The notes beneath the pieces were generated by a model. It saw nothing but the letters and a program-made list of their open reading frames with translations, made no database searches and was not told where the DNA came from. Made by a program: the position numbers and the translations under genes. From contig OY987251.1 in the NCBI GenBank assembly GCA_963920765.1, positions 11,969,219 to 12,033,218 of the forward strand: a stretch of 64,000 bases of DNA, written 5' to 3'. Origin of the DNA: Ulota crispa (lineage: Eukaryota > Streptophyta > Bryopsida > Orthotrichales > Orthotrichaceae). This document shows positions 6,415 through 61,538 of the stretch, one piece after another. The stretch's first letter is position 1, and each line of letters starts with the position of its first letter.

Positions 6415-8918
6415 TGCGCTTCCTGAAGACCATGGTGACACGCCAAGTTTAAACTTCTCTCGTCCAGTGCACAGAATTGGTAAGACACTAGTAACCATTG
6501 CCTGGTTTGTGATACATCATAGGGTTTAGGGGCTTACGCATTTGCACAGCTTAAAGCAACATAATAAATTCAAGGTTTAGACCTCCATGTGCAATTGGGG
6601 ATGAGATAAAAATATCTAAATAATCCATTCAGTTTCTACCGCAATCGTAGCAAAGGATATTATAGAAATACGATGGATTGTTTGAAGATTGCTCTCTCAT
6701 CCCCAGTTGCTTTGTTCATTTGATCTTGTCTTGTTCAATTCTAATATCATGTTGACCCAAGTAGGAAGCATGGACAAGAAGAGGTTATGTTTACAAAGCT
6801 TATGTTAAAACCATGTGAGACAACATGGTTCCAAGCTTACCTCTTTAAGATAAAATTACATACTTATTATAAAAAATGCATGTCAAATCTCACCTTAAAG
6901 AGTTTGCTTAAATCCTTGTTATTTCAAATGCTTTTAGCCTGAGCTATGTAAATATCACCTCTTTGTGCTCGTTCTTCCTACTTGGACTAACGTCACGTAG
7001 AATCTATACAGAATAAGCCAAAAATTAAGAAAAAAATGGGATCATTACACATTTAAAGGTTGGGTCTTTTTTTTCCTCAAATTGGTTGCTTCAACTTGTG
7101 CAATCTCAAGCGATCTTTAATTTTATTCTGTAACTGAAATTATAAATCTTTCAGGCATGTTTTGAAATTTTTTACTGAACTCTAAATACTGGTCACTCGG
7201 TTGTATTGATTTTCTAATTTTGACCTTATTTGCAGGTTTTTTGGAGTATCAGCAGTATGTTCCTTGTACAGGCCTTGCGTTCTGAGCACAAGAGAGAGAG
7301 AAAACTGATTACACGAAAGTATAGAGAATTTTGAAACTAGGTTTCATGTATCTCACTTTTTTAATGACAAAGTGTGCCAACTGTCTTTCTGCAAGTTTTG
7401 GTTTAGTATTACAACGTCTTTCTTTTCCCTTTTTTGTGTTTATTTTTATTTTTACAGTGCTTTTTTATTTGCTGGGGTTTTTGTCATGCTCGGCCTATTA
7501 TTGAACTTTGGGTTGTACCTACTTTTTGTATGGTATTTGCAATAATTGTATTGTATAGAAATAATGTGTAACGTTTTGTAAGCTGATGAATCACAATCAT
7601 GGAGTTGCTCTTTTGTAGCGGCTTTCATGTAACAGAGAATATGCATGTTTGAAAGTCATCATGTACTTTTTTTTAGATTGTAACTTATTTGCCGATTATT
7701 GAACTTTATGTTTGATGAACTACACACAATGCCAACAACACCCAAAAACACCAACTACTCAACAATTGCAATTTAAAAAACACAGACGCAAAGAAACATA
7801 CATTTCAATCCTTGTTCCTAAAGGATTTTTCACAATTGTAAAAACACATCAAAACATTTTGTTCAACATATTAAACTTTCTTTGTTTGAAAAAGAGCTCT
7901 AAAATCTATGAGAAGTTTCTCACCATATTGGTTAAAAACCCCAAAAAATAAATTATGGAGGATGGTGACAACAAACATAATTTAAAGCAACAATTCTTCA
8001 AGTAAACAAATCAAATGCAAATATAATTTGCATATAATATTATAATCTACATAAATAAAGCACAAATTTTAAATCTAAGCATAATAATTTCTCATAATTG
8101 TGTTTAAGCTTCAATAATGACCTTTGAAACAATCTTGAATTTTAATAAAATCCAAAATTTGCAAAAAAGCAATTTTTTTTGTAATTTCTATATTTCATTG
8201 GCATTATGCATATGCTAGAACTCCCTTGTACCCTAAATCTTAGATTCAAAATAAAAAAACCCTAAACTTTTAATTTTTAAACCTATGCATGCACAAGACT
8301 AACTTTTGTAGTGTCATAAGCCTTGGATTTATATGCTAATACTATTAAATATTTATTTGAAAAACATAAAATTGATTTTTGACAAATTTAATATTTTTTT
8401 ATTATGAAAATTTAAAATGTTTTAAGTTAGAAAATAGTTGCAACTATTTAAAAGCTTTGATGTAATTTACTTTTCAATAGTTTAATATATAATAACACAT
8501 ATTTAAGTTTTTTTTAATGTTTTTAATTTTATATATTCACATTTATAGACATTTTTTGCATATTTTAAACTTCACTTGGAATCTAATAGTTTTATACAAT
8601 TGTATTTTGAAATTATATACTTACAAATGTAAAACTAAAAGCCATATTCAAGTCTAATATGTTAAAGTTAGAATAACAAAAAATGATTTTGTTCAATGTA
8701 CAAATTAAAATTACAAAATTTTAATTGTTTTAATTTACTTTTTCAAGTTATATGTATGAGATATTTTAAATATTTGTTAAGCATTTTTACTTTGAACATT
8801 TAAAATCTACAACAAACTTTAATTTCAATGTATAATGAGACACTTTTTAGTTTTGAAAAACTTGTTATAACACATAATTAAATTTACAAATGAAAATCAT
8901 TAAACATTAGAGAAATAC
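6415..8918. other. Phosphatase 3' flank and AT-rich spacer
   Basis: After the phosphatase stop there is probable 3' UTR, but no clear poly(A) site was chosen. A stretch near 7,236 preceded by 'tttgcag' could be a spliced UTR segment. From about 7,700 the sequence becomes extremely AT-rich with only chance reading frames. One small inverted-repeat element (6,757-6,985) is listed separately. Confidence 0.5.
6757..6985. mobile_element. Small inverted-repeat element (MITE-like)
   Basis: The left end CCAAGTAGGAAGCATGGACA and the right end, read in reverse complement as CCAAGTAGGAAGAACGAGCA, form terminal inverted repeats that stay similar for about 40 bases. The total length is about 229 bp. A related terminal word 'caagtaggaagtacaagcac' occurs near 34,338. 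No convincing target duplication was seen, so the superfamily is open. Confidence 0.6.
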
Positions 8919-10464
8919 CACTACAAGGAAAAATGGCTTTTAATGGACATAAAGTTGACATAAAAATTTCTAAAATTACACAATGACTATTCTAGTTCAT
9001 TCATTGTGTCAATTTATAAGTTATTTAAGACCTTGTGTCATTGGCACAAGGAAGTGGGTTCTAATCAACACGAAATTGACATAGAAATGTCCGAATTGAC
9101 ACTATAACACATTTGGTTTGCTCATTGTGTCAATTTTTGAGATTTTCAAAAAAAATTGTCAAACTTTTGTCATATACTTCAAATCTTCAATGTCGTAATA
9201 ACATCCATTATGTTTTGACAAAAAATTCATTATTCCAATAATGTGACTTTAAATTGGAATCTCTTAGAACAATTTTAGAATTTTTTTGGAATTTTTTGGA
9301 ATATTTGAAAATCTTTTTGGAATCTTTTTGAAATCTTTGAAATTTTTTTTAGAATCCTTGAAAAAATTTGAGATTCTTCTAGAATTGTTAAGAATCCATT
9401 TAGAATCTTTGAGAATCTTTGAGAATCTTTGACAATCTTTTAGAGCCTTCTAGAATCTTCTTTGAATCTTTTTGAAATCTTTTTGGAATTCATTAAAATA
9501 CTTCAACATCTTATATATACACACAAACTTTTAGAATATCTTTAGAATATTTTTGGAAAATACAAAAATCTTCAAAATAATACACAATCTTTTTTAATTT
9601 TTTGAATCTTTTGGAATTTTGATTGTATAATTTTAAGATTTTATTTCCATAACTTTCACAATTTTATGTTTTTTAAAGCTAGCTATCTAGGATGGATATT
9701 TGAATCTAATAAAGGTTTTTTTTTCAAAAAAATATAACTACAAAACAAAAATGAAGTTAACCTTCATTTGCAACAATTCTTTTGCAATTTATGATTTCCA
9801 ATAAAAAGCAATAAACAAAAATAAAAAAGGTGGCAATAATTATTATTTTTAGCATTTTTGAACATCCTATCTCATTTTTACTTATAGCCTTTAGTTAAAA
9901 AGTGGAAATCTGAAAAAAAGTTGTTGCCTGTGAAAGTAGTTCACATTATACAATTTTTTGTAGCTTTAAGTTTTTTTGAAAAAAAACTTTTACAAAGCTA
10001 AAATAGCCTCCAAAACGTGCAAGCTTTGTAAAGTACTAAAAACATTCACGTGTAGGATATACTTTTTAATTCTTGGTGTACACAAATGCATGTGAGTTAT
10101 GTAGTGGATATATGGAATGTGGTTGAATGCTTAGACTTTTAATTTGGAGATCTAGGAATTGACCCCTGTCTCCAATTGCATTAGTGGCAATCTTCAATGC
10201 AAGCCTAAAGCTGCCCACCAATTCTATTCTACATTCAGAATTTAAAAAAAAAATCAAATAAAAATTTAAAAAATATTTGAAATAAATAGCAACACATGAA
10301 TTTCAAATCAACATTTGAAATCAACACAATTATGTCAACTCTCTTGTACAAATTGACATAATTATGTCCAAAAGGACGTTCAAATCACCACATCCTATTC
10401 AACACTAAAGTTGATACGTTCATGTCAATTTTGTGTCAAATATGACCATGTTTTCCTTGTAATG
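8919..10464. mobile_element. Non-autonomous CACTA-type (En/Spm) element
   Basis: The left terminus is CACTACAAGGAAAA and the right terminus is TTTTCCTTGTAATG, inverted with one mismatch. The element is flanked by the 3-bp direct repeat TAC (8,916-8,918 and 10,465-10,467). CACTACAAG(G)AAAA ends plus a 3-bp target duplication are diagnostic for CACTA transposons. Subterminal regions carry repeated short words such as 'attgacat' and 'cattgtgtcaattt' in both orientations, as expected for transposase-binding repeats. The interior (about 9,250-9,610) is a decayed array of 'gaatcttt'-like words. No transposase frame is present, so it would depend on an element elsewhere. Confidence 0.88.
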
Positions 10465-11578
10465 TACTTTTTTTTTAAATATTGAAATTTTATGATTTGT
10501 GCAAATTTATAATGTTTCATTTTTTTAATTTTAAAATACATATATTTATTTTTTTTCTTACGTGGTCCACATTTACACTGTCCAATTTTGTTGAGTTTAG
10601 AATGTATGGTTTATGATATATTCATGGCCTATGAATGGAGATAGTAGACGTCATTGTCGTCCTACTTTTGCGGTTGGTCATGGTTGCAGCTTTACTAAGT
10701 TAGCGGACGTCATTGTCCATCTCTTCTTAGAATTGGTCCTTATTGCAACTTTATTGAATGTAGATGATTTTAGAGCTTCAGAGGCATGTTGTAATTGTAG
10801 TCAATGCGAGGTTACAATAATATTCTAAAAATTGTAGTTTATATGAATGCATTATTATAATTCCAAAAAAAAAAACATAGTTTTCTTTTGTAAAAAATTA
10901 TTCAATTAATAGTCTAATTTTATAAAATCAAAATATTCATATTTTCATAAATCATTTAACTTTTGCGTAAATAATTTAAATACATTTTACAATTTATTTC
11001 ATATCAATTTTAAAATTAATTATTGCATTAAGATATAATTATATATTGACATGACTAATTCAAAGTAAAATATATTTAAATTTAGTGGAAATAATGAGTA
11101 ATGATGAAAACAAAACATTTTTTTATTTATTAATGATCATACTTATCTTCAATCTTGTTATTTGCACACGGAATTTATGCTCTTTGAAGTCATTTTTTAC
11201 AACAAAAAAATATGAGGTAATTTTTGGAAAAATTGAATCTTTTGCTAGATTCCAAGTTGTTGTGAGAAAAGATGATGAATGTGCTTTTGGCGTTCTTCAA
11301 TTATGTTGGGAAAATATAAAAAAATTATCAAAAGTGAAAATTAGAAATTATCAACACTATTACAAAATGCTATATTTTTCTTTATAATAATTTTTTTTTA
11401 AGATTGTGATTTAGAGTTTAAACTTATTTCTAATCAAACATATTCTATTAGACACTGGTAATCAAAGTTTATATTCACGTACTTAAATGATAACAAACCA
11501 AAAACATAAAACAATACTATGTCTTGCGCAATGATGTAATGAAATAATGTTGGCAAGAGAAAGAAAATGTAATGTAAA

Positions 11579-11609
<31 letters not shown>

Positions 11610-13308
11610 TAGTTTGATTTATAACAAAATTTGACATTTATAGAGATTAAATCTACATAGTATGTCTTTGCGGTTGTATAAAAATATTCTACTATAAAAT
11701 ATAAATTTTGTTGACAAGATTATATGCTGAATTACATTTATTGTGTACAATTAACATGAGAGATGTTTCATCTTAGCTAGATATGTTAATACAAAAAATA
11801 TATAGCATTTGTAACTGTCAATTTTGTAGCTCTTTATTAAAAATATGATTTTTTTTTCAATATTGCATCATTAAACATTATAATCTGTCACAATTCATTG
11901 AAAACAAACTTAACATAAAATATAACAGTAGCAAGAAAAGTAGTTTGCGATAAACTACAAAGAGGAACTTTAAAAATTATCTAAATGTAAAAACCACAAG
12001 CTATTGTATTAAGAAAGAACCTTATGATTATTTGATTTGAAGTTAATTGCTAAAGTGAAATGTTGATGCAAAAATTGTAGACATATTGAAACAAATTTAG
12101 ATTCAATTCCAAAAAAAATAATGAAAGACAACTATACTAATAATGTTATTTAGTGTTGACAGTATGATTTGTAAATCTTAATATTAAATGTGAACAATCT
12201 TCTTAATGTTACAATACCAAATGTCAACAAATGTTTTATTTATTAACTATTATAAATTTTGAGAATATAATCTTTTATAAGTTCACAATTGGTTTTAAAA
12301 ACTAATTTTTTTGGTTACAATAAAAATATACCAAATAAATGTATGAATAAACATTTGATTAATAAGCAAATGCAAGTGTATTGATTTATAAAAAAAAAGT
12401 AATTCATTGCAAATAAACATTGCAATTAATAAAATTAATAAAAAAATAACTCAAGCTGAGTTGACTGCTTAATGATATTAAACGCATTAATTTTTTTGAA
12501 TTCAATATTATATTTATAAAATTGACATTTTTTAGTTTTTTTAAAATAGAAAAAATATTTTTTTATTTTCTCAAACATGATAACAAAGTCAAATAAAAAC
12601 ACTATTTGATACAAATTGCAAATACCACATACAAAACATTTATTATAATACTAAATTATTCCAAAATATACAATACATAATGCAAAATATATCATACAAA
12701 TTGGAAAATGAAATATATATATTCATATTTGTATATAATACAAATTTGATAATATATATTTAGTTTGGCCTGGCATATTGAACTATATCTTGTTAATCAA
12801 ATTATACATTATGCTTAGCAATTATGTCTTAATAATGTGGAAATAATCAATTTACATTCTAAAAATAAATAATACTGAATGGCATATTACAATAGATTAT
12901 AGCCTTTCCAACATAAGACATATTATTACAATCTAATTGCATATTAACATCTTCACCAGTATTGATGTTCAATTAAAAAAAATCTCTTGCTAAGATTGAT
13001 AAGTTTATTGGACCATTGACCATCATCAGGAGCTATAATATACCATGCATTTGCTGCAATTTTTTCAATTTTTTTGCTTCCCACTGTTTAATTAAACTAT
13101 ATTTTATCTTGGAAATGATAAATGTGGTAGCAACCTTACAAATATAAATTATATATATAGGCAAATATTTCAAAATAGTTAGCTTTTCAGCTAACACAAT
13201 TCTTAATTTTAAATGATATTTTAATTGGTACAATTATCACTCCATTTTTTTAATTTGTTGGTGCACATCAATTTGAAATGCCTAAGATACATTGAAATTT
13301 AAAAAAAT
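10465..13308. other. AT-rich spacer without recognisable genes
   Basis: About 2.8 kb of very AT-rich DNA. A (TA)n microsatellite lies at about 11,587-11,612. The longest frames are about 100 codons, rich in Ile, Lys, Asn and Phe, and have no recognisable motif; I treat them as chance. Confidence 0.5.
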
Positions 13309-15137
13309 AGGGTAAATTTCATGGATACCCCTGAAGTTTGCAGAATTATCATGGATACCCTTGAAGTTTTAGAAATATCACGAGTACTCTTTGACTAGCA
13401 ACTTCTTTATTGACTCTCCGACTTCTTTTCGGAATTTTTTGATATTACTGAACTTCAGAATATTCTTGATAATACAGCCAACTTCAAGGGTATCTGGGAA
13501 AATTCCCCTATCGTTTTTTCTTGTTACAGCTCCATTCGCAACAGTCAAGGCTCATGGTTGGTTAACTGAAAAAATATTTTAGGCTCTTTTAAATAGCCTT
13601 TGTAAAAAGAAGCTAGCAGTAAATCCTACCACTTGAATCTCTTTGAATTCTCAAATTTTCACTAATAAATAACCTAAAATTGAGGTTTGACAATTTTTTA
13701 TCATGTTTTAAAGTTTTAGTCACTAAAAAATGCTTACATAGAAATTATTTTTTAAAGTTTTGGAATCAATAAAATGAAAATTTGCTGGAGAATTGGGTCA
13801 ATAACAAAAAACACCCTACTTTTAATCAAGTCTCACCAATATTTTTGCTAAAGCTCTTTTAACCTCTAAAGGACCACTTATCCCTACGGGGGACAAATGG
13901 GATTTTGGGCATGTACTTAAAGCTAAAGTACTTTGTGTAATTTTTTGAGACTTTTATGGAAGATGCAAAATTCAAAGATCTGTGTGGGCATCTAATTTTT
14001 TCCTCATTCCAACATTTCTTGAAGAAGTTAAAAATGAATATATGAGAATTTTTGTTCGACGGGCAACCCAAAAACTTCTTTTAAATTTTTATTTTTTTAC
14101 AATAAAAATTTGAGGTTAGTTCTTTAGACTTACGTATATGTGAGAAGCTTTGAATCATTCAATTCTAATAGTTGAGCTATAAGATATGAGAAGTTTTAAT
14201 TTGCGTGTAGGCATAGTTTTGAGCTTTTCCACACTTACCCTCAAAATAGAACTTCTCATATCTTATAACTCAGCAATTAGAATTGAATGATTCAAAGCTT
14301 CTCACATATACGTAAGTCTAAAGAACTAACCTCAAATTTTTATTGTAAAAAAATAAAAATTTAAAAGAAGTTTTTGGGTTGCCCGTCGAACAAAAATTCT
14401 CATATATTCATTTTTAACTTCTTCAAGAAATGTTGGAATGAGGAAAAAATTAGATGCCCACACAGATCTTTGAATTTTGCATCTTCCATAAAAGTCTCAA
14501 AAAATTACACAAAGTACTTTAGCTTTAAGTACATGCCCAAAATCCCATTTGTCCCCCGTAGGGATAAGTGGTCCTTTAGAGGTTAAAAGAGCTTTAGCAA
14601 AAATATTGGTGAGACTTGATTAAAAGTAGGGTGTTTTTTGTTATTGACCCAATTCTCCAGCAAATTTTCACTTTATTGATTCCAAAACTTTAAAAAATAA
14701 TTTCTATGTAAGCATTTTTTAGTGACTAAAACTTTAAAACATGATAAAAAATTGTCAAACCTCAATTTTAGGTTATTTATTAGTGAAAATTTGAGAATTC
14801 AAAGAGATTCAAGTGGTAGGATTTACTGCTAGCTTCTTTTTACAAAGGCTATTTAAAAGAGCCTAAAATATTTTTTCAGTTAACCAACCATGAGCCTTGA
14901 CTGTTGCGAATGGAGCTGTAACAAGAAACAACGATAGGGGAATTTTCCCAGATACCCTTGAAGTTGGCTGTATTATCAAGAATATTCTGAAGTTCAGTAA
15001 TATCAAAAAATTCCGAAAAGAAGTCGGAGAGTCAATAAAGAAGTTGCTAGTCAAAGAGTACTCGTGATATTTCTAAAACTTCAAGGGTATCCATGATAAT
15101 TCTGCAAACTTCAGGGGTATCCATGAAATTTTCACTA
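13309..15137. mobile_element. Long foldback (inverted-repeat) element, hAT-like termini
   Basis: Two arms of about 0.9 kb are near-perfect reverse complements, meeting at a short unpaired centre around 14,205-14,245. The ends read (TA)GGGTAAATTTCATGGATACC and the inverse of (TA)GTGAAAATTTCATGGATACC. The same terminal sequence bounds elements at 33,892-34,799 and 61,222-61,538 and a remnant near 52,430-52,530. The 317-bp copy at 61,222 has an 8-bp target duplication, which points to the hAT superfamily. The mirrored 63- and 70-codon frames on both arms are products of the symmetry, not genes. A transcript crossing the element would fold into a very long hairpin. Confidence 0.85.
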
Positions 15138-21620: not shown

Positions 21621-21925
21621 CCCCACTTTTTTGTTTGAGCTGCCCCACTCTTTTATTTGAGCTGCCCCAATTTTTTTTGGAACTGCCCCAATTTTTTTGG
21701 AACTGCCCAGATTTTTTGGGAACTGCCCCAATATTTTTTGGAACTGCCCCAATTTTTTTGGAACTGCCCAGATTTTTTGGGAACTGCCCCAATATTTTTT
21801 GGAACTGCCCCAATTTTTTTTAGCTGCCCCAATTTTTTTTAGCTGCCCCAATTTTTTTTAGCTGCCCCAATTTTTTTTGTGGAGCTGGTTCAAATTTGTT
21901 TTTGAGCTGCCCCCAAAATCCTTGG
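21621..21925. repeat. Minisatellite of about 20-bp units upstream of the galactosyltransferase gene
   Basis: About 14 tandem units of the type 'ctgccccaattttttttgga' run up to roughly 260 bp before the start codon. Three variants (CCCCAATTTTTTT, CCCAGATTTTTTGG, CCCCAATATTTTTT) alternate in the middle as a roughly 57-60-bp higher-order unit repeated twice. Both strands stay open in several frames because the unit lacks stops, which explains the repetitive open frames here. Confidence 0.9.
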
Positions 21926-22182: not shown

Positions 22183-25100
22183 ATGAGGTCGAACCACCAC
22201 AGGGGATCCAGTGGATCCCTGCTGCAGCAGCAGCAGTACAAGAGCAGCGTGAAGAATAATGACAGCATGACCAGCGTCGTCATGCTCATGGTGTCCCTGT
22301 TCGCCTTCTCCTACATTGCTGGCAGGTACGGTGCGCTCTCGCAGAGGGTTTGTATAGTTCTCGAACATTCTTTACTCCGATCGTTACTCTCAGAAATTCA
22401 TCTCATCGAAATCTTCGAATATTGCTGACATGTTAACGAGCGATTGCTGAACGTAGTGTTCATTGAGACGTTGTGTTATGTTCTACCATTTCTAGAATCG
22501 AAGTAGACAGCATTTCTTGTAGGAAGTTCTGTCTCTTGCGACATTGTACGAATTAGGGTTTCGTTTATATCGAAATATTAGAATAGTTCGCGTCTGTATA
22601 GATTAACCAGGAATTGTGAGGTTTAGTTTTCAGGAAGGTTGTTGCGGTTTTATAGCGTTTGTAGAGAACTAGCTTGCATTCCTTGGGGGAAACTCTGTCT
22701 ATCGTGACATTCTTAGAAATTAGGGTTTCGTTTATGCGAAATTTTAGATTTTGCTTACATATTAACGAGAGATTGCAAACGTAGTTTTAATTGAGACGTT
22801 GTGCCCTTTTTCACTATCTCTAGAATCGAATTAGGCAGTATTTCTTGTAGGAAGTTCTGTCTCTTGCGACATTCTACGAAAATAGGGTTTCGGTTATATT
22901 GAAATCTTAGATTTGTTCACGTCTGTATAGATCAACGATGAATGTAAAATTTTGTAGGAAGACTTTTGCCTGTTTTATAAGGTTTCTAGATTTTCGAGCC
23001 AGAGCTAGCTTAAAATTTCTTGTGGAAAACTCTGTCTATCGTGACATTCTTAGAGATTAGGGTTTCGTTTACATCGAAATTTTAAACTTGTTCACTTCTG
23101 TCTAGACCAACGAGAGATTGCAGAACGTAGTGTTCATTGAGACGTTGTGCCATTTATCACTAAGCTTATTTCTAGAATCGAACTAGACAGCATTTCTTGT
23201 AGGAAGTTCTATTTCTTGCAACATTCTACGGAATTAGGGTTTGCTTACATCGAAATCTTTGATTTGTTCAAATCTATGTAGATCAATATGGAATGTTAAG
23301 TCTAGTGTTCAGGAAGGCTATTGCCGTTTTCATAACGTTTCTAGACTCTCGAGCCAGAACTATCTTGCATTTCTTGTGAGAAAACTCTGTCTACAGAGAC
23401 ATTCTACGAAATTAGGGTTTTGTTTACATCGAATTTTTAGACTTGTTCACTTCTGTTTAGTTTAACGATCGATGTAGAGTGTAGCTTTCATGGAGGCGTC
23501 TTTTGTCGTTTTACATCGTTTCTAGACTGTCGAGCTGGAACTAGATAACATTCTTTTTATAAAGTTCTATGTCTTGCGTCGTTCTGAGAAATTAGGGTTT
23601 CGTTTTTCACGGATTCATGGATTTTGCCAGCTAGATTTGCTTCCAGCTGGAGAACTGTGAATTTGTTGTAGAAGTTTTTAGATGCGTAGGTACTGTTCTA
23701 GATGGTGCAATAGCTTTAAATGGCTTTGGATTGGCTCTTAGGTTAGGGATTTTGTATGGGAGTTGTAATACCCGGAGGTATAGATTTTCTGTAGAAATTT
23801 GAAAGGTTAATGTCGAAGTGTATTTCTGAGTAGAAATTGTGTGGTGTTGTAATGTTTCTAGGCTCTCGAGCTGTAATTCTGTAGCAAGATACGTCACTTT
23901 TTTGTACATGAAGATTTTAACTTTTAAACGTCTGAAAGACCCTTTGCGGCCAGTACAATACAAGGTTTTTTTCTTGTATTTGGAATAGATTCACACCCTT
24001 ACTACGTTTGAGATCAACAAAGAAATTGGAATATAATCTAATGCGGTTCTAGTGAGCTATTTGAGATCCCAAAGTTAAATTTCTTGTTGTTAGCAACTGT
24101 GAGTTATATGGCAAACGTATCTGCTAGGCCTATGGGACGTTCAAGGATTAATCTAACAAAGAGGTTAGGGTTTCTTCATTCATTGATTGGAATTCTTGGC
24201 TAGATCTTAGGGCGGTTCACATTACGTCCCACGTCACATCTTTGCAAGTCCCACCTCAACATGAAGTCCCAGCTTAACTGGGTTGTGAAGGGCAAATAGG
24301 GCTGAAGGACTGAAGAAAACCATGAATATTTTATGCATATAGATTGTTGGGACTTGAGCTGAAAGTTGGGTTGAGCAACCTTGAGTGAAGTCTTGGCTTC
24401 TTGGCGCCAAAACTTCCTAACCTTTGGCTCTCAACCAATTAGATTGTGAGACTTAGTGTGAATTTCCCTTATTTGAGTTTTTGTAGTGGAGAAGCGTGAA
24501 AGTATCATGGTTATTCACACCAGAAAAAAATTGTTGTTTAGAAGCTAAGCACGGGTACTATTTTCAGATATAGTCAAATCTCTTACATTCTTGTTAGCAA
24601 ATTGAATTGTGCGCCAAAGTTGCAAAATTTACCATATTCAGAAGTTGTAAGGGTTAAAAGTATTATGGTAGAGCACTTAGAATTAACAGAAGTTTGTTGT
24701 GAAGGTGATATACATTTTTACTATCCATAAGGGTTTCAGATTTTGATATTTTGTGTTTATATTGGATATAACATAGGCGCTTGTATAAAATGGGTTGTTT
24801 TCAAGTTAAAGAATAGGTTGTGAGGTAACCCCAATTCTCATTCCATATACACCGTTTTTGAGAAATGATCTTGTTGAAGTCTGAAACCCCTAATATGTAC
24901 TCCATGTGCAATATTATAGGGTTTGAAATTTAGTTGTACGTCGCACTTAGATGTCTCTGTATTTCAGGTGTTGTTTCACACTATCCATAAAATTATTTGC
25001 CACTTGTTCTAGTCGTGGCATGTCGTTCAGGACTTTGGGTCAGCTTCTCGGTTTGAGTTTTTTTTACAAGTTTGAAATTGGAGGATGATGGCATTTGCGG

Positions 25101-36264: not shown

Positions 36265-36534
36265 GAATGAATTTAGTTGTTCTTGAAGCGGCAGAGTGTG
36301 ATTTTGGTTGTGCAAGTACTGGAAGATATACGTACGTGCTTTTTGAGATCTTGAACACTCACCAGCATGTTCTCTTTCGACATATTATCCATCTCTCTGT
36401 TTTCCTGATTATGTGCAACGTTGTGATGTGCAGGTTTTGTCATCTATCTCCGCGTCATCCACACGACAAATCACGCGGTGTCGAGTGCGCTTGGACTTGA
36501 TTCGCACTTGGTATACATATCCGAGTTTTAAGAC

Positions 36535-37086
36535 ATGGCCGTGTTATTGCTCGCGACTCCTTTCGTGCAATCGAACGCTTTGAGAAGCAAGGCAACGATT
36601 GCCAACGTGCGAGGTCTCCAAGGTCCGAAGATGTTACGGATGGCGTGTCCACGGGCCTCAATTTCATCAGCACAAAGATCTGATTCCAGCAAATTCGGAG
36701 TCCGCCAAACCGGAGTCACCGTTCTCCAATCGTTGAGTAGTCCACTCCTGAACCTCTCACCGGCGGATTTGATCGCCGCGTTTTTGGAGGAAGAGATACA
36801 CGAAGAACTCTCACCCGCGGACTTGATGATCACCGCGTTTTTGGAGGAAGAGACTCACGAAGAAGAGCAGCGTGACGAAGTAGCACAACCTCTGAAGAAA
36901 GTCGAACCGGTTCTGGAGGAGCAACAAGTGGCGCGACGGAGATCGGGGCGAGTCGTCTTCACGGAGGAGAAAGCTCGACGCATGAGGCAGGAGAATCGCG
37001 CCACACAAACGTTCCACGACAAGTGGTATCATTCCGCCATCGCCAGCAGGCTCGCAGCTCCCGAGTCCCGAGTTGATATGCCATGA
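36535..37086 (+). CDS. Unknown single-exon protein, paralogue of 48,474-48,923, possibly plastid-targeted
   Basis: The 183-residue frame starts ATGGCC with a favourable context. The N terminus (MAVLLLATPFVQSNALRSKA) is hydroxylated, basic and nearly free of acids, like a transit peptide. Residues 73-112 hold two copies of an LSPADL..AF.EEE.HEE block, encoded by a 57-bp internal duplication (about 36,754-36,864). The C-terminal 50 residues carry the module shared with the paralogue: RRRSGRVVF, EEKAR, QENRATQTFHDKWYHSAIAS. Weak similarity also links VRGLQGPK and SPLLNLS. I do not recognise the family. Conservation between the two copies is concentrated in the basic/aromatic C terminus, so that is the likely functional part. 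The GC-rich frame contrasts with the surrounding AT-rich DNA. No intron is needed, though a leader intron is possible. Confidence 0.75.
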   Translation: MAVLLLATPFVQSNALRSKATIANVRGLQGPKMLRMACPRASISSAQRSDSSKFGVRQTGVTVLQSLSSPLLNLSPADLIAAFLEEEIHEELSPADLMITAFLEEETHEEEQRDEVAQPLKKVEPVLEEQQVARRRSGRVVFTEEKARRMRQENRATQTFHDKWYHSAIASRLAAPESRVDMP

Positions 37087-48345: not shown

Positions 48346-48473
48346 GCAACGTTGTACATACATACAAGTGCTCGGCTGATAGTTTGAATTTTAATTGTAT
48401 TTAGACACTAGTTCTCTATTGTATTTCGGCATTTGTAGATAATTTTCGTTGGTTGTGGAAGCGACTCGAGAAA

Positions 48474-48923
48474 ATGGCGACTCTGGAGATCGCTTCAGCC
48501 TTTGTGGTGTCGAGCCCGTTGAGGAAGCGTGCATCTACTGGTGCCGTGCGAGGGTTTCGGGGGCAGAAATCGTTGCAAGTGTCATGTCGACAGAGTTCTG
48601 GTGATGTTGAAGGGCAACGAAATGCCGGTAGCGAGAGCGACGACGGAGACCAGGAGGTCGTGAGCATTTCCCAGTCGTCCAGAAATCCGCTTCTCAACCT
48701 CTCGCAAGAAGAGTTGGCTGCGCTGGCTGAAAAAGAAAATTGCGTTGACGGCGCCATTGTAAACCCCGCGGCAGACTCAGGAGCGCGTCGACGCTCGGAT
48801 CGGGTGATTTTCACCGCTGAGAAAGCTCGACTCTTGAGGAAGGAGAACCGCGCCACGCAATCCTTTCACGACAAGTGGTACCATTCCGCCATCGCCAGCA
48901 AGTTGGCCATGCCGGAGGACTGA
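48474..48923 (+). CDS. Unknown single-exon protein, paralogue of 36,535-37,086, possibly plastid-targeted
   Basis: The frame from the ATG at 48,474 gives 149 residues. An upstream in-frame TTG at 48,453 is not a plausible plant start. The N terminus (MATLEIASAFVVSSPLRKRA) is basic and Ser/Ala-rich, like a plastid transit peptide, and is followed by VRGFRGQK and SCRQSS, which match VRGLQGPK and ACPRAS in the paralogue. The middle is acidic, with one NPLLNLSQEELAALAEKE block where the paralogue has two. The C terminus contains RRRSDRVIFTAEKAR and KENRATQSFHDKWYHSAIAS, the most conserved part. Function is unknown. Both genes are on the + strand 11.4 kb apart, and each has its own repeat-rich upstream region. 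No intron was seen. Confidence 0.78.
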   Translation: MATLEIASAFVVSSPLRKRASTGAVRGFRGQKSLQVSCRQSSGDVEGQRNAGSESDDGDQEVVSISQSSRNPLLNLSQEELAALAEKENCVDGAIVNPAADSGARRRSDRVIFTAEKARLLRKENRATQSFHDKWYHSAIASKLAMPED

Positions 48924-51610: not shown

Positions 51611-52918
51611 CAGAACAATAATTATTCTATTCATTAAATTGAGTAAAATCAGATTCCTAAAACTCGGTTTAAGGTGCTTACCTAGTTCATTCCCAAAATC
51701 AGGGTTTCTTCCGAAATTAACTAATATGGCGTTTATTGGTCGTTTTGGTGTATTAATATACTCTAACGAAGTGAAATAAAAATAAAAACTGGGCAGGAAA
51801 CGCCTGTCTACAGAAAGGACATCACAAGAGATGCTGACAGAGTAAGAAACACCAGAAAGAACAGAACTAAAACATGGCTTCTTCATCTTTAAAATCAAAT
51901 GGGATTTAGCATTTTCTCACTACTAAGACTACGCATCTTAATGGATTTAGTGTGTGATACACTATTTTAATATTAAGTTTAATGCTAATTTCAAGATCAT
52001 ATGTTAATGTAAATTTTGATGAGCAGTGTTCTCTGAGCTTTAGAACTCATGTAGACCACTTGTTGCGTAACCTCTTGACTAAATGACTATGAGCTCAAAG
52101 GTTACTCGACGGTGATTCCAAGGAGTACAATCTAACTGAAATGAAGAGTGTATTTACTCTATGGATAGCTATTTTGGTATTACAACAAATCGTGGATGAC
52201 ATTAAATTTAAGGGATTTGATATATGTATAACCCCTTTTTGACTATTCTACCACACCTATTATATATGGTCAAAATTTACAATATGAAAATAGATGTGGA
52301 TCTTGGGAAAAACATCATTATTTTAGAAACACAACTTGACATAGAAGTTGCAAGTTTTAATTTTGTAATTTAGCTTTGGATCCTCCACATAATATTAATT
52401 AAAAAATCTAAATTAACAGTCAATAAAGAAGTCACTTGGTCAAAGGGTACTTGTGATATTATTGAAATTTTAGGGATATTTGTGATAATATTGCAAACTT
52501 TAGGGGTATCCATGAAATTTTCCCTAGAAACTATATTAAATCCTTATGGCTTATAGTTTATGAGATTTTAGCATTTGAAAATGAGATTTATCAATTAATA
52601 GATTTGGTTTCATTAGTTGGGTAGTTGGGTGTTGCTCCAAGAAGATTAAATGATTGTGATGTGGTAGTTATTCTTATTTCTATGGTTATGTGGCGGTTAT
52701 GGTCGTCCTTGGGGATGGGGTATACACGGGAATAGGGGGTGAACGCCTAGAGAAGGAGGCAAAGTGTGTAGGTAGGCATAGTACAAATAAGTTTATTGTA
52801 ACAAAAAGGAAAAGAAGCCTGAAGAAGGTGATTATGAGGAAGATCATGTTGATATTTTTGCAAGGACCCCCTCCTGTGATGGCCCTCCGCCGGAACGGCA
52901 AGTACAAGGGTCCACTAG

Positions 52919-52971: not shown

Positions 52972-54540
52972 CAAGTGCTTGCAACTTCAAATCTTGTGCT
53001 CTAGTATCTTGTAGCTCATGGGGTTATATTACACATCATGTTTGTGTTGACAATTAATGTTCATATTGGATACTACTTTAATGCATGGTGAACTACTTCC
53101 ACACCAATTTACATTTTCTTGGGTGGAAATTTAGTTAGCAATTAGTGCTAATATTGACATCAAGTGTTAGTTTGCAAACTCAAAATTTTGCTATTAGTGT
53201 AGTAGATGCATACAGTAGGGGTTTCAAATACCCCAAAAAAGTAAGTACACAAATGGTTGTAAACAACTTTTTGTTCACCAATGAATATGTTGTCACAACT
53301 TTAGGAGGTCGTCATGGCTCATTCATGGAGTGACTTGGCCCAGTTATTCACCAATTTCATTCACGTGAACAAAATTGGTGTTGAATGGCATATTTGAACC
53401 CCCTATTAGGGGGCTTCAAACTTAAACTTTTTCAATTGACTCATGTTGCAATTCACCTTTGTGAATTCACTAGTGAATAGAGAGGTGACTCACCTATGGA
53501 ATCCACTCCTAACATGATTCACGTGAACTTCAAAAACTCACTTTCAAGCGTCCCATCCTTGCATCTGTCTCAAACGCTCAAATCCTGACTTGCTCACAAA
53601 ACCCTAATTGCAAATTCACAAGTGTGTCAGATTTTTGGTGTAGGAGTGAACGAAAATAATTCACTAGTGAATGGGGATCTTGTGAGGTGAGAAACTTGTA
53701 GGCCAGATTTCATGTTTGAACCCCCTATTAAAATGAGGGGTGGTGCAAAAAAATGTCACTTGCAGCGGTCTGAACACTCCTCACGACCACCACCGCTGCA
53801 TTGTCAGATCCCCACGTTGGTCGACGTAGATACGCTTTGAGTTGTAGAGAGGGCTCTCTCTTTGACTATCCAAGCTTCCCTTGACACTCTTGCTCTATTG
53901 TGGGACATTCTAGCTCACTACGTACTAGAGAGCAAGCAGGTATTTGTCGATTCTAGAATTTAGCGAGCCCAGAGGGCAAGCTAATTTCTAGAATTGGCAA
54001 ATACTTGCCCGCTCTCTTGCAATAAGGGCAGGGGAGGCCGTATTTGGCAATTTCTATGATATACGATACTGTATAGTTTTTGTACATACTGGACGTCATT
54101 TTTGTACTCATACTCTGCTTCGTGTTTCTTGATGCCAAGTGTCCGCCTCTTGTTGCTTCTTCGCTGCTCGTTGTTTCTCTGCTACTTCTCTACTGCTAGT
54201 TGTTTCTTTGTAGCTCGTTGCTTTTTTGTCTTCTTCCGTTGCCAACCTGTTCACTAGTGCTTTGAGCTGTAGTGATGGAAACTTGGAGGAGTGAAAGCAC
54301 ATTTTCTGAGGCTTATGATGCTGTGTTTGAATCCGAATTGCGCCATTTTGATACACATGGAGCTTTTATCGCATTCCCGATGTTAATTCCTAGTGAATCT
54401 CATTTTCCTATGTGTACGTGTAGTTGCAACATGCGTCCAAAATAACTGTATTTAGAGAGTTTTTGCAGGTGTCGATTCTCTAGGTCAGAGGGGGAATTGA
54501 GACTCACCGGGGAATGAACACCAGGAACGCAATATCAGTT
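52970..54540. other. Spacer without recognisable genes
   Basis: No gene was recognised. One family H element is listed separately. Around 54,108-54,356 'gctgctcgttgtttctctgc'-type words repeat loosely. Confidence 0.4.
53406..53733. mobile_element. Inverted-repeat element, family H, second copy
   Basis: The left TATTAGGGGGCTTCAAAC and right GTTTGAACCCCCTATTA are complementary. The interior has repeated 'attcactagtgaat' palindromes. A further 'gaaccccctatta' just left of the left end (53,396-53,409) suggests two copies once abutted here. Confidence 0.6.
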
Positions 54541-54986
54541 GTCTGTGATAGTGAAGCAGATTAGTTTGATTGTACATCTACTTTGATTAGTGATATTGAT
54601 GCTGGTGATATTGATGCTTCTAAGATTGTTCAGATGTATTGCTTTGCATTTGAAGATGCTTCTAAAATTGATTTGATTGGCAAAATTCCTTTAGTTGCTG
54701 AGATTAGTTGCTTTAATCAATTCAATAAACTCTTCAAAGATGCTCCTTGGCTGGTTGACAAGGAAGAGGTTAGCGTTTTTTATTTCATAACTGAACTTGG
54801 TGAGGAAGACGTGTTTTTACTTCTAGGAGATGGAGCAAGTGAAATTGTGCCTCCCGTGCATGTTCTTGATCCACATAGCAATGACAGAATCGAGTACTTG
54901 AAGAAGCCAGGGATTCATGCAAATTGACAAAGAAGAGGTCGAGCTTGTAAAATGAGGTGGCAATTGAAAGTTGAAAGTCAGTGTAC

Positions 54987-56850
54987 ATGGAACGCTGGGT
55001 GCTCAACAGGTTTAATGACTGGCGGAAAGTTAGTGGCATCTCCAGTGACACTGAAATAGAAGAGTTGTATGAGATAGCTTTAGCAGAGCTGAATGAGTTA
55101 TTCTTGACTTTTTTCCTTTAGGTCTTACAAAGAGATGGTAAAACCTAACCTGGTGAGACCTTGGTTGGACTCTTGCATGCTTTAGGCCGCATCATCCATG
55201 GCCATTGTGAGAAGAAGAGCATAGAAATGAGTTTAAGGATGGATAAGTTTTACATTCTTGACGATTCTCGTTTCAAAAAACTTGCACATCATGTTTAGTA
55301 TCAGTGTAGCGCTCTGCCAAGGTTGGAATTGGTTGGAAGAAGAAGAATACTGATGGACTTACTCCACATCAAGTCCAAGCCATTCTTGCTCAAAATTTCA
55401 TGAGTAGAAGTGATAGGCGTGGCTGTCAGATGCGGGTGGCGTTCTTTGCTGTTCATTTTTGTGTCCGTGCTCAACAAGAGCTATACAACTTGAGCATTTC
55501 TGATTTTGAAATTTCTCATGATGCGTTTGGAAAGTTTGTTAGATTTGATGAATGTTCCTCAAAGAATCACAAGGTTGATTTGAAACACTATCAACCAGAG
55601 AAGCTGCGTTGACCTATCACTTGCTATCATCTAGATGTTGTTGCTACGTTTGAAACGTATTTTGCTCATCAACCAAAATGGAGTTGTGAAGAAATTGAGG
55701 AAGGAATTCATCCTCTATTTCATAGAGCAATTGATGGGATATTGAGAGATCATGGTGTTGTAAGATTTTTTCCCAGAAGATCTCGTTCTTGAACTTGATT
55801 ACTGGCTTTGCCACTAGTTTTGCAAGTCCTTGTCAATATCATCAATCATTAAATCTAGGAGATCTAGGGGTGTAGATTGTCGATCCATTGTTGACATTCT
55901 TTATCACTGAAACTAGTTGATGCTTCAACTTACTTCTTATTGGCCAATTTCCGTTTCCAACTTGAAGTTCTTATCAGCCAATTTTTGTTCCAACTTGAGG
56001 TTCTTATCAACCAATTTCTGTTCCAATTTGAGGTTTTTATCAGCCAATTTCTGTTCCAACTTGAAGCCTGAACTACTATTTGAATTTCTAATCAATCTTC
56101 ACTTTCTTGTTCCAGTGGTATTCTAAGAGCCGAGTTGGATTGAAGTCCATTTCAAAATGGCTTAAGCTCATGGTACAAGACATTTCAAGATGTGATGTAA
56201 GCAATATAATGAATAAGAGTGCTAGGGTCACAGTTGTTAAGCAATTGAATGCTATCATGGGGGTTCTAGCAGAGATTGGCATGAAATTGGCTGGACACAC
56301 ATCTCGTGAAGGTTACATGAGATACGATACTGATGTAGAAGGCATAGAGATGCGGGCCTTGCAAAATATTGCTAGGGCTATTCCTAGAACTAATGGCAAC
56401 ATTTTTTGGAGTGCCACTTTGCAATACAAGTGACAACAATATGAAGAAGTTTTTAGCTGGAAGCCATCACTGTCAAAGGCTTTGCCTACCAAACCTCCAT
56501 CAATCGATATTGTAGCTTTTGAAGCAGCTAATTCTACAGCTTGTTTGAAGCAGCCAACACATTCAAGTTTTGATAAGAGTGCTATTCTTTAGCGCCAATC
56601 TTCTTCAGATTTCGATTGGTGGTCAAACCTTGACGTTGTTGAGGAAATTGATTGTCAAGTGATTTCTCACAAGAAGCAAGCTTTGGAGATGTCTTGTGTG
56701 GTCAACACAATTGGAAGTAGTATCTTTCATTGAAACTTGAACAACTGCACAATTCATCTAAATGTTACAAACGCTGTTTCAGCAACAACAATTCTCAAGA
56801 ATTTGGCTAGTCCAAGTAGCAATGGCTGCAGTGCAATGAATGAGTGAAGA
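54987..56850 (+). pseudogene. Decayed Crypton/QRICH1-type tyrosine recombinase-like gene
   Basis: Fragments in different frames fit one protein in order. From 54,987: a helical N-terminal part (RWVLNRFNDWRKVSG, then RDGK and ETLVGLLHALGRIIHGHC, DSRFKKLAHH), as in the core-binding part of DUF3504/Crypton proteins. A frameshift near 55,320 moves to DGLTPHQVQAIL, AFFAVHFCVRAQQELYNLSI and KHYQPEKL. A GTAAGA at 55,759 and an AG at 56,114 may bound an intron with a minisatellite. From 56,115: WYSKSRVGLKSISKWLK, KSARVTVVKQL and GHTSREGYMRYDTD, giving Arg, His-x-x-Arg and Tyr in tyrosine-recombinase order. A tail ending NNCTIHLNV follows. In-frame stops (near 55,122, 55,158, 55,300, 55,612, 56,431 and later) mark it as dead. 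An open frame at 54,583-54,927 may be a 5' part. Family assignment rests on motif memory, not a search. Confidence 0.65.
55945..56075. repeat. Minisatellite inside the recombinase-like pseudogene
   Basis: About four units of roughly 33 bp: 'cttatcagccaatttctgtt' plus 'ccaacttgaggtt'. It lies in the stretch bounded by the possible GT (55,759) and AG (56,114) splice signals, between two conserved blocks of the protein. Confidence 0.85.
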
Positions 56851-57221
56851 CACCATAGCAGTTGAATTTCATTTAGAAATGGTAGTTGAATTAGATTTCA
56901 GTTCACAATTTTCTAAACCCTTTGAACTGTTTCTTCAAAGAATCAATACATTGAAGATTCCGATTATACTCATTTATTCTTGAAAAATACAATCCATTTC
57001 ATCCATACAATTACTATATATGTTATGTGAGTACTTTTGGTAGAATACGGTATGATAGTGATTTTGAATTGCGTAAATACATTTCATAATTGGTAGGGGG
57101 TCACGGCTTACCAATTCAGCAAAAGAATCCAGCTCAATAAGAGCCAAATCGGCCTCCCTTGCCCTTAATGACAAACAAGGTGTCGCAATCCACGCACCTC
57201 AACGCCCATCGCATCGCAACC

Positions 57222-58888: not shown

Positions 58889-61221
58889 AGTTTTGGATCT
58901 TACAAGGATATTGCTCATGCCAATTTTGTGGAATGGCTTTCCTTACCAAAAGCATTTTCTTAATGCACGGGGAAAGCTCTTTGCTTGCAGGTCTTATCAT
59001 GCTTTGAAATCCCATGGGTGAATTGAACTTTGCATTGATCGCCACCTTTGTAATCTAGTCATATGATTGAATTTGAGATTCACAGGAGAAAAAGTTTTAA
59101 AGGCTTTTATATTTCTCCAGGAGTTGTTTGCTTTGTTATTATACTTCTATTAAGCTTTATGAGGTTCTTAATGTGATTACAATCATTGACAAGAGAATGG
59201 AGATGTTTTTGATAAGATGTTGCTTTTAGACTATTCGTAATTTGTATCTCAAGTTCTCACAAGTGTGTTTGTTTGACAGTTTACCTACCAGAGTCCCTTT
59301 GCACTTACAGATATTATCTGCATTTGTAGATGCCACTTTAGCATGTTGACAAATGTTGAGAGTTATTTAATCTCATGTGGCATTTGGGAAAATAAACATT
59401 TTATTATTGGGAAAAATAGTTTGTTGCCTACTTGGAAAAGTGTTTTTTATATCTCCTAAATGTTACTATATGGTTCTTCTTAGCATCCTTGTAGAGTCTT
59501 CCAACAAGAATCTAGTCCCATTCCACAGTTTATGAAGGCTATCCTTGAATTTTTTTCTTCTGCAAGTTCATCTAGGCTCTTCTACGTTTTCCTCCTAAGA
59601 AAGATCCACCAAGTAAATGCAAAATTAAGGGATTTTCAATTGGTTTGATTCCAAGAACAATACATATCTTGATGTTTTCATTCCAACAACTTGATGCTAT
59701 AATAAAAAATTGTAGCTGTCCAAGTGTTCAAGAATAAATAAATTCTTCACCATTTGCCTTCAAATTGTCGTGGGCCATATTATTATTACACTTTTTTCTC
59801 TTGATGCTATTTTCCCTTTGGTTTGAAATCAAAAAAATTGAGCCAACAAAATTAAAGAAGCAAGTTCAAGAGGCTTTGTTCCTAAACTTTCTCAAGGTAC
59901 TCTAGATGCAAAGTCTCTTCCCTTGCAGTCTAGAGTCAATAATATAAGGGCTCATTGTGGCATCTCCAACATTCTTTTTTGATAAAAATTTGAAAGCAAA
60001 TGGATTACTTTAGCCAAGAGAAATCGATCATGCTAATAGTCCTTTAAGACATTGTAGAAATGACAAAAACTTATCTAATTGGAATAATTATTGCAAAATT
60101 GGAATGTAAATTGACATTTTAGCTATTAAAGAGTTCTTAGTCAACATACTTCTTTACCACAATAAAACACCAAACCCTCTTAGAAACTTATCTTTTAGTT
60201 TACAATTCAAACCATATTGCAATGAAGCTATTTAGCAACTTTTGCAAGATTTGGGCCAATACTTGAGGAGATTTTTGAGCATCACCAAGTAAAATCCAAT
60301 ATTTTGCAATTTCAACTAATTTTCCTTGAGCATGCATGTTATGTTTTTTTATCATCATATCACAATAGACTATGATTATTTTTTTGGAAAATATGACAAT
60401 TTTTTTTTAATAATTTCACATTTCAGTTGGTTTTTTTTGCCATTTCAATTGGTTGACTTTGTATTGATAGCTAGTTTTTTCCCAATCCAAAGTTCTAACA
60501 ACAAACTTTGTTCTTGAACAAATGGTCCACTCAAAGCAGTTTTAGGGCCACATTGTTTTGAGGCCTAGGCTCATTTTTGAGTTGGCCCAAATCGCAATAC
60601 ATCATGTCATCAATTGGGCCCAGGTTTTGACTAAGCTCTAATTTGAAGCCCATGGGCTCAATTATCCAATTTCTAGTTAACTAATAAAGGTCCATGTTCT
60701 TGAATTAAATCAATGTATAGTGAAAACCCAATTTTTTAAAACTTGGGCTTAATAATTGGCTCTAAAATTTTACCACGTAGGTGAACATGTCATCAATAAG
60801 ACCAACTACACAAAATTGTGCATTTAGGTTCCCTCAACAATTAAATTGCCTTACCTTGGAAAGTTGTCTCATGATACATTGCTTGGTCACTTTGAGGTGC
60901 ATGCAAATTTTTAAATTTTTAAATTTCACATGATTTACAACTTGAACACCGTTTGTTTTTTTATAGCTCAATAAGGATTTATCATGCTACTAAAATTATT
61001 ACAATCTCTATAATATCACATCATGCCCTTTGTAATATCACACCTCCACTATGTGTGATACAATTTGAAGACTTACTAAGAATTTTACCTCGCATTTTAT
61101 CTAACATATGAAAATCCTAATAAAACTATAGTGGTGAATGAGTAGGTAGCAAGCACCAATTGCTAGTAAAGTATAAAATGTCAAGAAATTAGTGTGAGGC
61201 AACCTAAACAAAATATTTAGT
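58889..61221. other. Ribosomal P1 3' flank and AT-rich spacer
   Basis: No gene was recognised. The frames are short and Phe/Leu-rich. The sequence just before 61,222 belongs to a family G fragment that the next element split. Confidence 0.45.
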
Positions 61222-61538
61222 TGGGAAAATTTCATGGATACCCCTAAAGTTTGTAATATTTTCATTGATACCCTTGCTTTTTTAGAAATTTCACAAAATA
61301 ATACCCTTGGACCAAAATTTTCAAGTGTTTGTTTTTTTATGCATGCCACTTCCCTTCTTCCTTTGTGCACATGCATAACAAGAAAGAAGCAACGTACACA
61401 CAAAAGGAGAAGGAAGTGAGATTCACAAAAAAAAAAACGCATGAAAATTTTGGTCCAACAGTATTTATGAAATTTCTGAAAAAATAGGGGTATCTATGAA
61501 AACATTGCAAACTTCAAGGGTATCCATGAAATTTTCTG
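61222..61538. mobile_element. hAT-like family C MITE with 8-bp target duplication
   Basis: The 317-bp element begins TGGGAAAATTTCATGGATAC and ends CCATGAAATTTTCTG. TATTTAGT flanks it on both sides (61,214-61,221 and 61,539-61,546). The flanking sequence without the element would match the family G copy at 18,483, which is therefore an unoccupied equivalent. An 8-bp duplication and these ends fit hAT elements. Confidence 0.88.

Follow-up and report, generated by a model that had tools for sequence, protein, structure and literature searches.

Among described transposons, Cryptons stand closest to the element reported here. In the portions of the survey by Kojima and Jurka on which we draw throughout (2011, PMC3212892), Crypton recombinases have an R-H-R-Y tetrad, and Crypton ends, which are hard to define, bear direct repeats of 4-6 bp in fungi and oomycetes or no terminal repeats in animals. 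The family described below shares with Cryptons a tyrosine recombinase as the sole enzyme recognised so far, DUF3504 relatives, non-autonomous derivatives in which both ends are retained, and the absence of a consistent target-site duplication. It differs from them in having K-x-x-R where Cryptons have H-x-x-R, and also in its ends: these carry a terminal hairpin and inverted repeats that are asymmetric, whereas Cryptons, in the same portions of the survey, have no inverted repeats. Cryptons in land plants are little described: the word Crypton is absent from the main text of a land-plant review (PMC9033089). Among the titles listed from the open PMC literature there was no paper on such an element; a meta-analysis, in the part cited here, already lists Crypton among the superfamilies present in all groups studied (PMC4438587).

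DUF3504 and phage integrase are one superfamily, according to the part of PMC8371274 used here. In the genes KCTD1, ZMYM, QRICH1 and WOC, a QRICH1-like region is followed by DUF3504, the same order as in the present family; animal DUF3504 genes have lost the catalytic set, the catalytic Tyr included (PMC3212892, as above), whereas several element copies keep the set, with scores below the Pfam cut-off. SSV1-type integrases are viral integrases of archaea, unlike this transposon, and resemble it in their catalytic consensus, R..KxxR..Y (PMC8371274, same part). Helitron2 elements, or Helentrons, likewise have asymmetric inverted repeats, a terminal hairpin and, in some families, no target-site duplication, but they have a Rep-helicase where this family has a tyrosine recombinase, and other end letters, repeat and hairpin lengths, and target (PMC3627910 and PMC5148889, in the parts cited).

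The window, that is, the whole stretch of 64,000 nucleotides analysed here (C10:11969219-12033218), probably carries a decayed DNA transposon with its own Crypton/DUF3504-type tyrosine recombinase and with unusual ends. Lineages with defined ends would supply concrete substrates for a recombinase of this group.

Results

The recombinase relic

A preliminary description of the window had proposed a relic of a Crypton/DUF3504-type tyrosine recombinase, and this was borne out by profile alignment and by better-kept copies elsewhere in the genome, presumably a plant's (274.8 Mb in 157 contigs searched). All the strings quoted in that description were found on the + strand, in order, in the window sequence and its open frames. 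Five collinear fragments within 54975-56430 align to a profile made from the genome's own copies, the window itself being one of its members. All lie on the + strand. Fragment 1 (54975..55118; profile positions 13-61, E 1.3e-13) corresponds to the region that is QRICH1-like in other copies, and fragment 2 (55149..55295; positions 74-118, E 1.2e-13) holds the LLHALGR block. Fragment 3 (55310..55609; positions 126-227, E 1.3e-39) holds DGLTPHQVQAIL and FCVRAQQEL, the latter with the first catalytic Arg, and fragment 4 (55613..55789; positions 229-269, E 8.5e-14) follows it. Fragment 5 (56092..56430; E 4e-20) is the catalytic core, with NKSAR (KxxR) and GHTSREGYMRY (His, Tyr). The gap between collinear fragments 4 and 5, after which WYSKSRVG comes next, is a probable intron (55790..56115, +); a 33-bp tandem repeat lies inside it at 55934-56066. 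When L019, a foreign copy, was used as phmmer query, three of the five fragments were recovered (E 2.4e-4, 2.5e-6 and 2.8e-3).

On either side, DNA homology to a copy on C4 continues beyond the fragments. Upstream, an acidic open frame (54565..54924, +), perhaps the protein's N-terminal region, lies within DNA homology to the C4 copy, which begins at window position 54611; this frame matches no Pfam family at cut-off. Downstream, a C-terminal tail (..NNCTIHLNVTN..; 56434..56847, +), broken by stops, is homologous in DNA to the same copy up to 56819. At least seven stops separate the collinear pieces of the window copy, which also contains one frame change. Three other loci match the stretch in DNA (E down to 1.9e-174), and further loci match it in protein. 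AlphaFold predictions made without an alignment for two window fragments were uninformative (mean pLDDT 46 and 54), and an Rfam scan of the window gave nothing at gathering score.

Family membership and catalytic residues

Taken singly, the window fragments (8 pieces) have no DUF3504 or phage integrase match in Pfam at E<=1, so the window's link to these domains runs through better-kept copies. The profile comparison suggested in the preliminary description thus succeeded through other copies, at scores below the Pfam cut-offs, and failed for the window fragments alone. The best DUF3504 match of the family, in the joined pieces of L056 (C3:16.95 Mb), reaches 26.0 bits (E 1.1e-5) against a Pfam gathering score of 29.7 for PF12012, as for a remote relative; L019 (C5:2.26 Mb) reaches 25.2 bits, with a weak QRICH1 match. 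DUF3504 is matched at E<=0.1 in 7 of 12 alignment rows, some of which are parts of one copy. Directly after DUF3504, L056 matches the C-terminal third of phage integrase (E 0.023), and L061 (C5:14.75 Mb) matches its C-terminal end (E 0.017); these PF00589 scores, 14.9 and 15.3 bits, are below the curated cut-off of 27.1. Searched against PDB sequences, the family profile found no match at E<=1. None of the 8 window frames scanned matched a Pfam family at cut-off.

The R..(H/K)xxR..(H/W)..Y order of the tyrosine recombinase superfamily (DNA_BRE_C) is found in the family. In the window, the set comprises the Arg in FCVRAQQEL, the Lys and Arg in NKSAR, and the His and Tyr in GHTSREGYMRY. The preliminary description had read GHTSREGYMRY as HxxR; instead, it contains what we take to be the third-box His, with the Tyr nine residues on, as in XerD, and the HxxR position is K-S-A-R, that is, KxxR. 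All five catalytic residues are kept in the window, L049, L050, L054 and L056, and in L051 once an intron is spliced; the remaining copies have lost one or more. The His position of HxxR is Lys in 23 of 24 readable copies and Arg in L061, and in none is it His. By our reading of the alignments, 13 of 21 readable copies retain the first catalytic Arg; the residue has become His in L023 and three B1 copies, Gln in L027, and Cys or Leu in the three E copies. L019 lacks the second Arg through a four-residue deletion relative to its relatives. In lineage C the Tyr is separated from the rest of the site by an intron (GTAAGT..CAG), whose donor is GTAAGT and whose acceptor is intact in L051 and changed in L019 and L060; an earlier reading of this Tyr as a stop codon was rejected for that reason. 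From the alignments, the predicted catalytic set reads R, KxxR, H, Y. A Lys at the His position is consistent with an active enzyme, because SSV1-type integrases, which have KxxR, form a covalent intermediate with DNA (PMC8371274, as above).

Ends of the element

Borders shared among copies define the whole element as 53922..57169 (+; about 3.25 kb), with GTACTA at the left and ..CCTTAAT at the right, to within one base. The other copies and their boundaries, which the preliminary description had proposed looking for, were thereby found. The left border is common to L062, L063, L064 and L023, with the hairpin shortened in L063 and letters changed in L023; the right border is common to L025, L026, L028 and L024, together with three gene-less copies. 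The left end is a hairpin (53922..54020, +; arms 53927-53970 and 53974-54017, 82% complementary), for which folding with RNA parameters gives -68.7 kcal/mol over 134 nt, and which recurs in L062 and L064. Inside it lies the left arm of an asymmetric terminal inverted repeat (54021..54048, +). This pairs with 57143..57169 on the - strand, which is the element's right end.

Several controls bear on this assignment. The repeat arms score 22, whereas none of 4960 random places in the window exceeds 15, and the 20-letter core of the repeat has 2 matches in the window against 0 in 100 shuffles. In a uniform search, the window repeat was the best inverted repeat around the gene (E 7e-4). Genome-wide, the repeat pattern has 7 matches, the window and L025 among them, and the reversed pattern none. 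End motifs at a score of at least 13, scanned for at 27 loci, occur in 6 of 9 A loci (the window, L023, L024, L025, L026 and L028) and in none of the 18 others; among the nine, right ends were matched in five and left ends in only two. L021 has no motif match, yet its homology to L026 extends to the right end of L026. In L028 the best-scoring inverted repeat (E 0.005) overlaps the copy's own right-end motif, and the hairpin beside it is weak (13). Hairpins led by GTACTA were seen at 4 of 65 sites, and eight control words gave 0 to 4 at 44 to 174 sites; taken alone, therefore, the shared start letters are weak evidence. Relative to L064, two-sided changes keep 2 of 42 hairpin pairs in the window and 0 of 42 in L062, against 3 and 4 broken, so there is no strong covariation in the hairpin. 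A piggyBac-type TTAA duplication at the window ends was considered and rejected, as the TTAA belongs to the repeat and is itself palindromic, and the border that the copies have in common is 99 bases outside it.

The three gene-less copies, L062, L063 and L064, consist of ends only, 0.3-0.4 kb long, with the two ends joined. L062 is identical to the window at 82% of the left 162 bases and 86% of the right 157 bases. These copies look like internal-deletion derivatives.

The same layout in other lineages

In lineage E, L043 has a 122-nt hairpin starting with GTACTA, followed by a repeat that matches the right end (43 columns, score 35); its relatives L042 and L029 have half the hairpin and a diverged one, respectively. 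An initial view of a 249-nt inverted pair in L043 as classical terminal inverted repeats was set aside, because the copies read as a hairpin and an asymmetric repeat. For lineage F (C3), the flank was fetched afterwards as a test of the prediction: the best hairpin and the best inverted repeat proved adjacent. The hairpin scores 19, more than any other of the 2059 windows scored in F and B2, and the repeat has E 0.022. In lineage C, L019 has a strong hairpin and then a repeat, whose best downstream partner sits where L051, a 94% relative, stops matching; the repeat score, 16, is below the 17 reached by shuffles, and the repeat is supported by position only.

As a uniform control, each of 15 loci, a set outside which G falls, was searched for its top hairpins upstream of the gene and its top inverted repeats surrounding it. 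A hairpin directly outside the top repeat was obtained for the window, L043 and F only. Because the inverted repeat of lineage C was not recovered in this test, the claim for that lineage is weakened. Inverted repeats as good as or stronger than that of F occur in L021 and L022 but lack the order with the hairpin outside. Neither B2 (C6:3.03 Mb, a single copy) nor a BTB gene described below showed the hairpin-repeat layout in this control. For B1, represented in it by the single copy L044, there was no clear support: a hairpin is followed by a repeat 77 bases further in (E 0.014), the right arm of which lies inside another inverted-repeat element. The layout can thus be taken as firm in A and E, as likely in F and as partial in C.

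Two repeats were noted beside these copies. A 68-bp stretch at the right end of E (L043:3106-3173) has at least 28 further matches in the genome at 76-90% identity. Upstream of the copy in L019, at reverse positions 2743-2826, an 80-bp stretch has at least 30 matches at 90-96% identity, and is a young, high-copy repeat as judged from the 40 candidates scored out of 2232.

Spread, age and selection

The family is dispersed over at least 28 distinct loci, a lower bound obtained with protein and DNA queries, on all ten large contigs (15.8 to 41.4 Mb). In a tree of 25 rows and 334 columns, from which L025 and L060 were left out for their short length, separate lineages are formed by E (100/100), A with the window (100/99), C (100/100), B1 and B2 (100/100 each), and F; G and F are on long branches, and the rooting on G is arbitrary. 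The BTB gene goes with the C/B/F group at 98/97, outside that group and beside A. Introns are kept in many copies, and intron content varies by lineage: L019 is open through three sites at which the BTB gene has introns. The intron-free first part of L019-L051 had suggested a retrocopy, which was rejected, as no poly-A was seen at the break.

The recent or horizontal entry into the genome that had been suggested is not supported: at least 28 loci fall in several deep lineages, and a scan of viral contigs with one copy as query found no relative. Nor is the idea that the window copy died recently supported by its synonymous differences from other A copies, which range from 24% to more than 75%; against the copies on C4 and C2 they are 42-45%, with 15-18% non-synonymous. 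In the oldest pairs, synonymous sites are near saturation.

Constraint is evident in pairs of which both members carry the right end. Between the window and L028, 123 of 154 synonymous and 192 of 602 non-synonymous sites differ (p 2.2e-27); between the window and L026, 58 of 78 and 91 of 321 (p 4.3e-14). It was seen also in E, B2 and B1 pairs (p 0.028 to 3e-48), and in L019-L056 (2.7e-29) and L019-L059 (0.0046). Young or short pairs gave no significant constraint: p was 0.69 for the young L019-L051, 0.46 for the window and L025 (54 codons), 0.09 for L021-L026 and 0.08 for L022-L027. These substitution patterns indicate that the recombinase was under purifying selection in the past. The enzyme thus evolved under constraint as the family spread, with decay on the recent branches.

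Neither a target-site duplication nor a direct repeat at the element ends recurs consistently among the copies whose flanks were read; the copies are old, and short duplications could have been lost. In L019 and in L043 the two flanks have four or five letters in common, which is not so in other copies. By eye, and with L024 excluded as unclear, T precedes 8 of 10 left ends and G follows 7 of 12 right ends; no precise target rule emerges from these flanks. The flanks of L063 were matched nowhere else in the genome, and so no empty site was seen.

A BTB fusion gene and candidate domestications

At L020:1462-5302 (C5:23.02 Mb) lies an intact-looking gene with eight exons, which by our own reading have fitting splice sites and encode 788 residues when spliced. 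Its product has a BTB domain (55.2 bits) after DUF3504 (21.9 bits) and QRICH1 (16.7 bits) matches, both below cut-off, and the catalytic His and Tyr are replaced by Pro and Asp. An intron in this gene occupies the same place and phase as the lineage C intron before the Tyr. KCTD1 isoform b is an animal protein in which DUF3504 is fused to BTB (PMC3212892, in the portions cited), and the C5 gene is like it in the domain order and in the loss of catalytic residues; we infer that the two fusions are independent, and the C5 gene may represent a second instance of a KCTD1-type fusion. Its sequence suggests that L020 was probably domesticated by the host, and hence that the family was domesticated at least once. 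Descent of the BTB gene from a transposon is the simplest reading, since E, A and F have hairpin ends and C has a hairpin.

The B1 copies (L044, L046, L047, L048 and L052, on C1, C2 and C10) may represent a second domestication. The B1 pairs tested combine near-saturated synonymous divergence with strong constraint (omega 0.055-0.22), and the first catalytic Arg is His in three of three readable copies. Some B1 copies carry stops.

Discussion

Three other explanations were weighed against that of a transposon with its own recombinase. The main rival, though an unlikely one, is a non-autonomous Helitron2-like rolling-circle transposon that captured a DUF3504 gene long ago and whose Rep-helicase would be encoded elsewhere; the window frames scanned include none. 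In the part of PMC3627910 cited here, the inverted repeats of Helitron2 elements are asymmetric, the first lying at the 5' end and the second immediately before a 3' hairpin, and the window element read in reverse has this order; moreover, target-site duplications are absent from some Helitron2 families and variable in others (CRe-1 to 3), and Helitron2 can carry genes such as Fanzor. The details differ, however. According to the same part, the Helitron2 repeats are 8-15 bp long, the 3' repeat lies 20-30 bp from the end, and the 5' end is T, one family inserting after TTTT; the window element has a repeat of about 28 bp, a hairpin of about 100 nt, ends of the form GT...A(C/T), and flanks unlike TTTT. 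Also against a Helitron2-type capture, purifying selection acted on the recombinase during the divergence of copies that carry these ends.

Considerably less probable is an ordinary host family of DUF3504 genes, multiplied by gene duplication and leaving pseudogenes behind, with ends that are unrelated small repeats inserted nearby by chance. Such a family would agree with the retention of introns in several copies, with the great age and constraint of B1 and its altered first Arg, and with the intact-looking BTB gene; B2 and the BTB gene are without such ends, and B1 has none clearly. Against it stand the concentration of end motifs in A, the layout in E and F, and gene-less copies that join exactly those two ends. 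A host gene family is a better account of B1 and the BTB gene than of A, E and F. Derivation of the recombinase from a DIRS-type YR retrotransposon is very improbable: DIRS elements also carry a tyrosine recombinase, and intron content differs between lineages, but the profile matches are to DUF3504 and QRICH1 and many copies keep introns.

If the element is a transposon with its own recombinase, the enzyme would pair the two inverted repeats. The two ends would be joined, probably in a circle, so that the hairpin would then lie between the inverted repeats; integration would proceed without target duplication, and gene-less copies could be mobilised in trans. Recombination on folded DNA has precedents in integron attC sites and in CTX-phage hairpins. 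A broader proposal, which we put forward tentatively and regard as possible but doubtful, is that these elements form a distinct class of land-plant tyrosine-recombinase transposons, characterised by KxxR, an end palindrome of about 100 nt, recombination of a folded or palindromic junction, gene-less hairpin elements, and at least one recombinase-BTB domestication parallel to vertebrate KCTD1.

Other features of the window were recorded. Related foldback repeats are found at 52436-52537 and 61210-61536, with relatives in L023, L026 and L042. Two similar open frames, at 36532-37086 and 48405-48923, end in FHDKWYHSAIAS.LA; neither matches a Pfam family at cut-off, and the second has no PDB match. 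Tandem arrays occupy 21629-21879 (20/61-bp units) and 22405-23605 (units of about 175/355 bp). Finally, the stretch 8001-14000 is very AT-rich, with 22-25% GC against 30-44% in most of the window.
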